From assembly GCF_000484535.1 (NCBI RefSeq), contig NC_022600.1:3596001-3660000 (forward strand): DNA of 64,000 nucleotides. Reading direction: 5' to 3'. Shown piece after piece: positions 39,036 through 40,932 of the stretch. How positions within the stretch are numbered: the first letter of the stretch is position 1; each line of letters opens with the position of its first letter. The notes beneath the pieces were generated by a model. That model saw only the letters and a list, made by a program, of their open reading frames with translations. It had not been told where the DNA came from and did not search any database. The stretch is from Gloeobacter kilaueensis JS1 (GTDB taxonomy: Bacteria > Cyanobacteriota > Cyanobacteriia > Gloeobacterales > Gloeobacteraceae). The position numbers were made by a program, and so were the translations under genes.

Positions 39036-39713
39036 TTACTGTTGATCCCTGGCCGGATCCTTATCCTTTGGCTGATTGCGCAGCCGCCAGACCCAAAAGC
39101 TCAAAGCGGCCAGCACCAGGGCAAAGGCGATCGTCAGCGGCGTCTGAGCCACCAGCGGATAGTGAACGCCCGTTCCCAGCGTATGGAGCAGAGCCAGAAA
39201 GGCGACGAAGAAGACGCCCTGGTGCAAGCTCTTCCAGGCTCCCTGCAAAAGGCGCACCGAAAAGTTGTTGCTCGTGAGCGCCAGGGGCACCATCGCAAGC
39301 AGGGCGAATATACCGAGCATCACGCCAAACTGCATGTCTCGCGGCAAAAAGAACATCCCGTCCAGACTGCCCCCCAACACATGCACGATCTGCGACCACG
39401 TGTGCAGCAGCGAAAAAGCAAAGGTCAAAAGCCCCAGATAGCGCCGCTCCTTGAGCAGACCCGGTAAGAAGCGGCTGAGAGGCCGGGCCGCCAGAGTCAA
39501 CCCGAGACAGACCAGCGCCAGATGCCCCTCCACCTCGCTCAACCGCTGCTGCACCAGATGGTCACTGCTCTGCAAAAAGCTGGCAGCGACAAACCCGAGC
39601 AGGCTCGCCGTCAGAAGCCACGTAAGTTTGCGGCCATCACTCATCCGACCGGGGGAGAGGTCTACCCCGGCAGGCTCGCGTTGCTCGATCGGGCTGGTCG
39701 ATTCTTTGGACAT
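39036..39713 (-). CDS. Ferric-reductase-like six-helix membrane protein
   Basis: 225 residues with six hydrophobic segments starting at about residue 29. The order and the paired histidines (SLLHTWSQIVHVLGG and SLHQGVFFVAFLALLHTLG) match the ferric reductase-like transmembrane domain that binds two b hemes, as in MsrQ/YedZ. The basic RPLSRFLPGLLKERRYLG loop is also typical. The N-terminus is soluble and Ser/Pro-rich. It has no flavin domain and no MsrP gene beside it, so its electron donor and acceptor are unknown. 38 bases separate it from sppA. Confidence 0.82.
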   Translation of the reverse strand: MSKESTSPIEQREPAGVDLSPGRMSDGRKLTWLLTASLLGFVAASFLQSSDHLVQQRLSEVEGHLALVCLGLTLAARPLSRFLPGLLKERRYLGLLTFAFSLLHTWSQIVHVLGGSLDGMFFLPRDMQFGVMLGIFALLAMVPLALTSNNFSVRLLQGAWKSLHQGVFFVAFLALLHTLGTGVHYPLVAQTPLTIAFALVLAALSFWVWRLRNQPKDKDPARDQQ

Positions 39714-39814: not shown

Positions 39815-39844
39815 TTGACAGTGTCCCTCAATTATTGTTAAGTT
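39815..39844 (+). promoter_or_regulatory. Probable sigma70-type promoter of the first four-cysteine protein gene
   Basis: A perfect -35 box TTGACA at 39815-39820, an 18-base spacer, and a weaker -10 candidate TAAGTT at 39839-39844. The stretch around the -10 is AT-rich against the GC-rich background. It is about 40 bases upstream of the start at 39883. Confidence 0.55.
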
Positions 39845-39882: not shown

Positions 39883-40233
39883 ATGTTTTCGGCGAACGCG
39901 ATGCCCCAGCTCAAGGATGGCCGGGTTGAACTGGATCTCGAGTTCAAGAGCTTCTTTGTCAATCTCGTCGAGCGCAGCTACCGCGAGGGTCTGTCCCTTG
40001 TGCGCATCAAGGAGGACATCGCCACCGTGCGCCGCGAACTGGAAGTAGCGGGCCTGGCGGAGATGCCGCTGGAGCAGTGGGCGGAGGAGGCGATCTTTGC
40101 CCTCAAGCGCCGCGAGAACCTGCCCTTGCGGGCCGTCGATGCGAATGCAAACCTGGCGGTCTGCAAGCTGTGCGGCAAGGTTGGTCCCTACCGCGAGACC
40201 AACTGCGCCTCCTTCTGCCCCTACGGCATCTGA
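39883..40233 (+). CDS. Four-cysteine small protein, copy A
   Basis: 116 residues from the ATG at 39883, chosen because GGAG ends six bases before it; an in-frame ATG at 39871 overlaps that ribosome site. Residues about 15-80 are helical and charged (VELDLEFKSFFVNLVERSYR, then LVRIKEDIATVRREL). The C-terminus is a compact cysteine motif CKLCGKVGPYRETNCASFCP ending YGI: C-x2-C, nine residues, C-x3-C, which looks like a zinc or metal-cluster site. No signal or membrane segment. No family recognised. Copy B lies 360 bases downstream. Confidence 0.82.
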   Translation: MFSANAMPQLKDGRVELDLEFKSFFVNLVERSYREGLSLVRIKEDIATVRRELEVAGLAEMPLEQWAEEAIFALKRRENLPLRAVDANANLAVCKLCGKVGPYRETNCASFCPYGI

Positions 40234-40593
40234 AACACGACCCCACGGACACTCAAGCACCCAGGGCAGGGTCAGAGACGACCTTGCCTTTTTGTTGAGC
40301 GCTCCCTGAGCTTTCAATCATCTGCCGGACGGCACGCCCTCGCCCTCAAATACGGCTGAGGGGCGCAACAGCAGCATGAAACGCAGCGAAGAACTCTTGA
40401 TTCTTCAAATCAAGAAACCTTGGTAATTGTTTGAGGTTTCTGTTGGTGAAGAATTAAAGCTTTTAGCGGACCGGACCCCAAATTGGCCACTGGGTTTCAA
40501 TAGGATAGGAAGCGAATAGTCGGAACCTCGCAAGCTGGCGCAAGCGGCTCTGCTCCGTCTAGTCACATTCTTATTGATAAAAAGAGAGCACCC
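40234..40593 (+). other. 360-base spacer between the tandem paralogues, with two hairpins
   Basis: No open frame worth calling. It contains two adjacent inverted repeats at 40396-40440, listed separately, and an AT-rich stretch before copy B. The length and the hairpins suggest that copy B has its own promoter or that its expression is tuned separately from copy A. Confidence 0.6.
40396..40440. repeat. Two adjacent inverted repeats in the paralogue spacer
   Basis: First: CTTGATT-cttca-AATCAAG (40396-40414). Second, sharing base 40414: GAAACCT, a 13-base loop, AGGTTTC (40414-40440). Together they would form two stacked hairpins in an RNA on either strand. No T run follows. They lie about 150 bases before the copy B start. 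Confidence 0.55.
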
Positions 40594-40932
40594 ATGCAAG
40601 ATTCGTTCGTGTCCGTCGAACCGGTGATCGAGTGCGGTCCCGCCGATCTTGACCTCGATTTCAAAGTATTTTTCATCGAACTGGTCGAACGCAGCTATCG
40701 CCAGGGCCACCCGCTCGATCGGATCATTGCCGACATTCAGACAGCTTGCTGTCAGTTGGGTGTGCCCGGTCTCGACGAATTGCGCTTTGTGCAGTGGGCC
40801 GAGCAAACTTTCGAGCAGCTCGAAAAGCAACAATCACAGCCGCAGAGTGCTCTCAATGTCTGCCATCTGTGCGGCAAGATCGCTCCCTACCGCGAGAGCA
40901 ACTGTGCCTCCTTCTGCCCTTACAGTAGCTAA
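40594..40932 (+). CDS. Four-cysteine small protein, copy B
   Basis: 112 residues, clearly paralogous to copy A: LDLDFKVFFIELVERSYRQG corresponds to LDLEFKSFFVNLVERSYREG, both have QWAE in the middle, and both end CxLCGKxxPYRExNCASFCPY. The C-x2-C-x9-C-x3-C spacing is identical. Two additional cysteines (ACCQLG) occur only here. Start ATG with a modest GAGAG upstream. Function unknown; the shared ending suggests a metal site or redox switch rather than a simple structural tail. Confidence 0.82.
   Translation: MQDSFVSVEPVIECGPADLDLDFKVFFIELVERSYRQGHPLDRIIADIQTACCQLGVPGLDELRFVQWAEQTFEQLEKQQSQPQSALNVCHLCGKIAPYRESNCASFCPYSS

Follow-up and report, generated by a model that had tools for sequence, protein, structure and literature searches.

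A tandem pair of small four-cysteine proteins in Gloeobacter kilaueensis from a family apparently restricted to Gloeobacterales

The window, a stretch of 64,000 nucleotides from the Gloeobacter kilaueensis JS1 genome (one contig of 4,724,791 bases), carries two tandem genes, here called copies A and B, whose products combine a predicted three-helix domain with a C-terminal motif of four cysteines. They belong to a family that appears to be undescribed and confined to Gloeobacterales. Our preferred reading, to which we give a probability of about one half, is that both proteins are lineage-specific, cytosolic, non-enzymatic adaptors with one structural zinc ion per cysteine knuckle.

Two paralogous genes and their cysteine motif

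Copy A (116 residues; 39883–40233, forward strand) and its paralog copy B (112 residues; 40594–40932, forward strand) are intact open reading frames, stop codons included, with the lengths and tandem arrangement that an earlier note on this DNA had claimed. An in-frame ATG is also present four codons upstream of 39883; we take 39883 as the start of A because a GGAG lies at ribosome-binding distance from it and the orthologs begin there. The A–B alignment score of 251, compared with a mean of −45 and a maximum of 11 in 1,000 shuffles, places their similarity far above chance. Between G. kilaueensis and G. violaceus, dN/dS is 0.112/0.758 for A and 0.351/1.037 for B, and the substitutions in both are concentrated at third codon positions; judged from these sequence comparisons, A and B are real genes on which purifying selection acts.

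The motif has the form C-x2-C-x10-C-x3-C, with G-K after the first pair, and sequence alignment locates it on the forward strand at 40162–40224 in A (CKLCGKVGPYRETNCASFCPY) and at 40861–40923 in B (CHLCGKIAPYRESNCASFCPY). Across 13 short and long members, C94, C97, G98, K99, P102, E105, C108, F111, C112 and P113 are invariant within the motif, as are F21, F25, V29, G36 and A67 within the body, and the two cysteine pairs (C94/C97 and C108/C112) are thus invariant candidate metal ligands. Homologs lacking the cysteines, which the earlier note had named as evidence that would speak against it, were looked for and none was found, the cysteines being kept in every short and long member. Both copies have the four-cysteine ending first described, but B contains seven cysteines in total, including a vicinal pair, C52-C53 (40747–40752, forward strand), that is present in 4/4 B orthologs and in none of the A copies: helix 2 reads TACC in all four B copies and has arginines (VRR) at the same place in A. 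The description of the body as acidic suits B (16 D+E, 8 K+R) but hardly A (17 and 16).

Within the motif (C94-Y114 of A) the two copies are identical at 17/21 positions, versus 38/87 within the body. The proposed peak of identity at the motif is seen family-wide, but the A–B figure in G. kilaueensis may be inflated by gene conversion. The motif of copy B is nearer to that of copy A (PYRE) than to that of the B orthologs (PAFE). At the nucleotide level, the end of G. kilaueensis B agrees at 85% with A versus 74% with G. violaceus B, and its body at 64% with G. violaceus B versus 53% with A. Where A and B encode the same residue in G. kilaueensis, the codons are identical at 16/18 motif positions and 11/35 body positions (Fisher p 1e-4); the same contrast is weak in G. 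violaceus (11/16 versus 18/38), and the motif figures of the two species do not differ significantly (p 0.21). Because of the PYRE–PAFE difference and the synonymous codon agreement, part of the A–B likeness in G. kilaueensis may stem from gene conversion, an explanation that is plausible but not proven.

Distribution of the four-cysteine family

Besides A and B, the G. kilaueensis genome encodes two further members, a third short copy (C1:1389672-1389998) and a long form of 176 residues with an extra acidic N-terminal region (C1:2226453-2226728). With the long-form profile used as well, the family was found in 9/9 Gloeobacterales genomes examined, G. kilaueensis included. In Gloeobacter, the genomes contain A, B and the long form. 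A single short copy is found in each of the Anthocerotibacter and Aurora/Cyanaurora-type genomes, ES-bin-141 combines one short copy with the long form, and ES-bin-313 shows the long form only; several of the Gloeobacterales genomes are incomplete MAGs, in which absences of copies are soft. PMM_0068 carries, upstream of its one intact short copy, the remnant of another, a second cysteine motif (VCTLCGKIHLPANPGASFCPYCP; L042:2315-2404) flanked by stops, which indicates that tandem duplication occurred more than once in the family. In a tree, the B copies group together (support 99/98), and A, the third copy and ES-bin-141 are placed without resolution. An old duplication, predating the divergence of known Gloeobacter species, would have given rise to A and B.

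A scan of the genome collection returned Gloeobacterales-type records only (an Aphanocapsa lilacina MAG, ES-bin-141, ES-bin-313, Cyanaurora vandensis and the uncultured PMM_0068). Phylum samples of 292 and 386 genomes yielded no intact member outside Gloeobacterales, in a non-exhaustive sampling from which short divergent proteins may escape detection. We rejected a match in sample genome G297 (E 0.004–0.007), which is brief and lies in a frame of 54 residues with a stop before the motif is complete, and matches in G303 and G367 (E 2e-4 and 0.004), which are helical segments in large frames without the cysteine motif. The viral contigs, phages and plasmids searched held no homolog. Neither A nor B had a significant match in Pfam, NCBIfam, PHROGs or PDB sequences, in keeping with the earlier failure to recognize the family, and a literature search, which used locus tags guessed from position, found no paper naming it. 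As far as these searches reach, the family is apparently undescribed, restricted to Gloeobacterales and absent from other cyanobacteria.

Expression signals and gene neighborhood

Separate transcription of A and B is the most likely arrangement, as their flanking sequences suggest, because a conserved terminator lies between them and B has a conserved hairpin leader; these two features also support the separate expression that had been proposed. The intrinsic terminator of A (40263–40293, forward strand), a G+C stem followed by a U tail, keeps its stem across the four Gloeobacter genomes; in each of the three genomes where folding was compared with shuffles, no shuffle did as well. Upstream of A, the TTGACA box (39815–39820, forward strand) sits 63 bases before the last leader base in G. 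kilaueensis; it is kept in the four Gloeobacter genomes, and in the other three a TACACT or TACGAT hexamer, a better −10 element than the one in G. kilaueensis, follows 17 bases on. The promoter previously assigned to A is borne out in part: its box is present and conserved, but the −10 element is poor in G. kilaueensis and a consensus scan, which missed the box, calls no promoter there.

What had been read as paired hairpins before B is a conserved structure, but a single nested two-stem element (40397–40457, forward strand), kept in four Gloeobacter genomes. Its folding z is −4.7 in G. kilaueensis, where no shuffle is equally good, and −1.1 and −3.3 in other species. Hardly any position of the outer stem changes, and in the inner stem the sequence differs while pairing is maintained; 94% of cells are paired, versus 30–53% in slid controls, and two pairs are changed on both sides. 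This covariation is modest, with 33–39 of 500 shuffles reaching the observed values in a set of four sequences, three of them close. A hairpin model, built from the same four sequences that were then matched, finds one strong match per Gloeobacter genome (n = 4), always before B, and one extra weak match elsewhere in G. kilaueensis (E 0.07). Rfam gave no meaningful match over the A–B region, and the hairpin is possibly an uncatalogued leader RNA element.

Divergently upstream of A lies a gene for a Ferric_reduct (PF01794) membrane protein (39036–39713, reverse strand), which is found beside A in 4/4 Gloeobacter genomes at 70–73% identity. The four genomes share the order of the whole unit, namely the divergent Ferric_reduct gene, A with its TTGACA box, the terminator and B behind its hairpin. 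Conservation within the stretches compared does not extend to SppA, a GGR-like gene or the genes that follow B. According to the genome paper (PMC3806779), G. kilaueensis has little synteny with G. violaceus, so the Ferric_reduct–A–B block stands a little above background; shared control sequences could be the cause of its retention. Outside Gloeobacter, Ferric_reduct homologs are located elsewhere, away from the four-cysteine genes, and possible operon partners of the latter (CobW GTPase, photolyase FAD domain, histidine kinase and SDR) were set aside as unconserved, varying by genome. In Cyanaurora vandensis (L037:6081-7578), the short copy lies 85 bases after a CobW-type GTPase gene on the same strand, an arrangement not encountered in the other genomes. 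Zinc chaperones occur among CobW proteins.

Predicted fold, possible function and known systems

AlphaFold2, given nine sequences, predicts helices at residues 19–34, 39–53 and 63–78 (pLDDT about 84 to 96), with a mean pLDDT of 79.9 and a pTM of 0.73. The cysteine tail reaches a pLDDT of about 70 in this model; folded alone, it has a pLDDT of 65.7 and a pTM of 0.28, too uncertain for a structure search, and tetrahedral geometry is consequently not claimed. Foldseek returned no convincing solved structure (best E 0.68), and because matches from both VIA-align and Foldseek were at background level (the best, at Z 6.4, being the N-terminal part of TnpB, inside the usual background), no known fold is assigned. 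Conservation outside the motif included no enzyme-like core. From this, the small size of the proteins and the predicted three-helix fold, we infer the adaptor role, as we also infer zinc, a partner and differential expression. The cysteine knuckle would hold one structural zinc ion in the style of half a zinc ribbon, which would make the tail rigid, and the three-helix domain would dock onto a partner protein. A and B probably share a target but act on it in different conditions, given the vicinal cysteine pair and structured leader of B.

Cysteine motifs of this kind most commonly bind zinc. Sequence matches to the tail are short and weak, but with few exceptions they are metal knuckles, namely rubredoxins, zinc fingers, ribosomal zinc proteins and one FUR-family regulator. 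The best Pfam zinc-finger match is the second zinc finger of IFT121 (E 0.0017, with one member's tail); for the whole protein the score is 15.7 bits, where the cut-off is 25, and no zinc-ribbon or zinc-finger match is significant. The long-form motif, CxICGKxNPxxExxCPxFCP, has what we take to be a common zinc-ribbon spacing bar one extra residue.

The invariance of the cysteines would also suit a thiol redox switch, in which CxxC and CxxxC disulfides, controlled by thioredoxin as in CP12, alter binding to a photosynthetic or metabolic enzyme. The host is an oxygenic phototroph, the B copies have their additional vicinal pair, and the ferric-reductase-like gene is adjacent within the genus; this heme-type neighbor, the only one conserved, and at genus level, would fit a redox role equally well. 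Yet C-x-L-C-G-K is a metal-knuckle signature, and searches of Pfam and NCBIfam show nothing similar to CP12 or to any other known switch, so we consider this reading rather unlikely. Iron could occupy the site instead, in a minimal rubredoxin-like Fe(Cys)4 or Fe–S carrier working with the divergent ferric-reductase-like heme membrane protein. That gene stands beside A in four Gloeobacter genomes, rubredoxin knuckles are the best PDB sequence matches of the tail, and the tail of copy A matches Fer4_4 (E 0.13), but every match is short and weak, the ferric-reductase linkage is gone outside the genus and the cysteine pairs, 10 residues apart, are unlike those of rubredoxin; an iron protein is unlikely. 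A nucleic-acid-binding regulator, with zinc knuckle and helical domain binding DNA or RNA and possibly controlling the genes that encode it, in whose leaders conserved elements lie, would accord with the zinc-finger-like tail and with a structured leader that scores strongly only before B in each genome, but the bodies are neutral to acidic and no helix-turn-helix or known nucleic-acid-binding domain scores meaningfully; we consider it unlikely.

Gloeobacterales branch as sister to all other oxygenic phototrophs; they have no thylakoids and carry out photosynthesis in the cytoplasmic membrane. A family that is found throughout this lineage, is often multicopy and is apparently absent elsewhere may represent either an ancestral function that disappeared as thylakoids arose or a lineage invention. 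We give little credence to a broader proposal, that A and B are metal- or redox-active accessories of thylakoid-less cyanobacteria acting with the ferric-reductase-like heme protein or with the photosynthetic chain of the cytoplasmic membrane, as condition-specific isoforms of which B is under an RNA leader. The four conserved cysteines make biochemical testing easy; should the proteins be merely structural zinc adaptors, their interest would be confined to lineage-specific biology.

A cyanobacterial protein of ~80 residues (MNYPIP...QRRWLS...QAWESLP) occurs in 62/106 good genomes sampled and has no significant Pfam match. At 24 of its 25 loci (L074-L098, about 1450-1850 in most) it shares one conserved neighbor, divergent where inspected, whose product has ~680 residues in Gloeobacterales and, in the 149 residues searched, no match to Pfam; the gene for this larger protein is present in 7/7 Gloeobacterales tested (L099-L105), and the small partner was not found beside it. 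The ~80-residue family resembles the four-cysteine family in a helical segment with an LV-x-x-x-x-x-x-G-x-SL pattern and has a nearly complementary distribution, but it is without the cysteine tail. Alignment of the two with hhalign gave 75–84% (75% over 50 columns), a suggestive value, but one that 2/150 block-shuffled controls equaled and reversed controls came near; the two families may be homologous.

CP12 and other small cyanobacterial cysteine switches likewise combine small size and two cysteine pairs in a phototroph, but no sequence similarity turned up with Pfam or NCBIfam, and the curated CP12 model gave no match. The rubredoxin profile spans two knuckles ~30 residues apart, whereas here the second pair is 10 residues off; only the first knuckle matches (8–9 residues), and no match covers both. 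FCS or treble-clef fingers such as that of Polyhomeotic share CxxCGK, followed by another cysteine pair where a helical turn is predicted (2l8e, E 0.31 by phmmer, non-significant), but differ in spacing and context. Zinc ribbons and knuckles (zinc_ribbon_2, double zinc ribbon and the rubredoxin knuckle) have C-x2-C as their second pair, in place of the C-x3-C of the four-cysteine family, and no significant profile match; they share with it C-x2-C-G, a second cysteine pair about ten residues on, and a loop with proline and charged residues.
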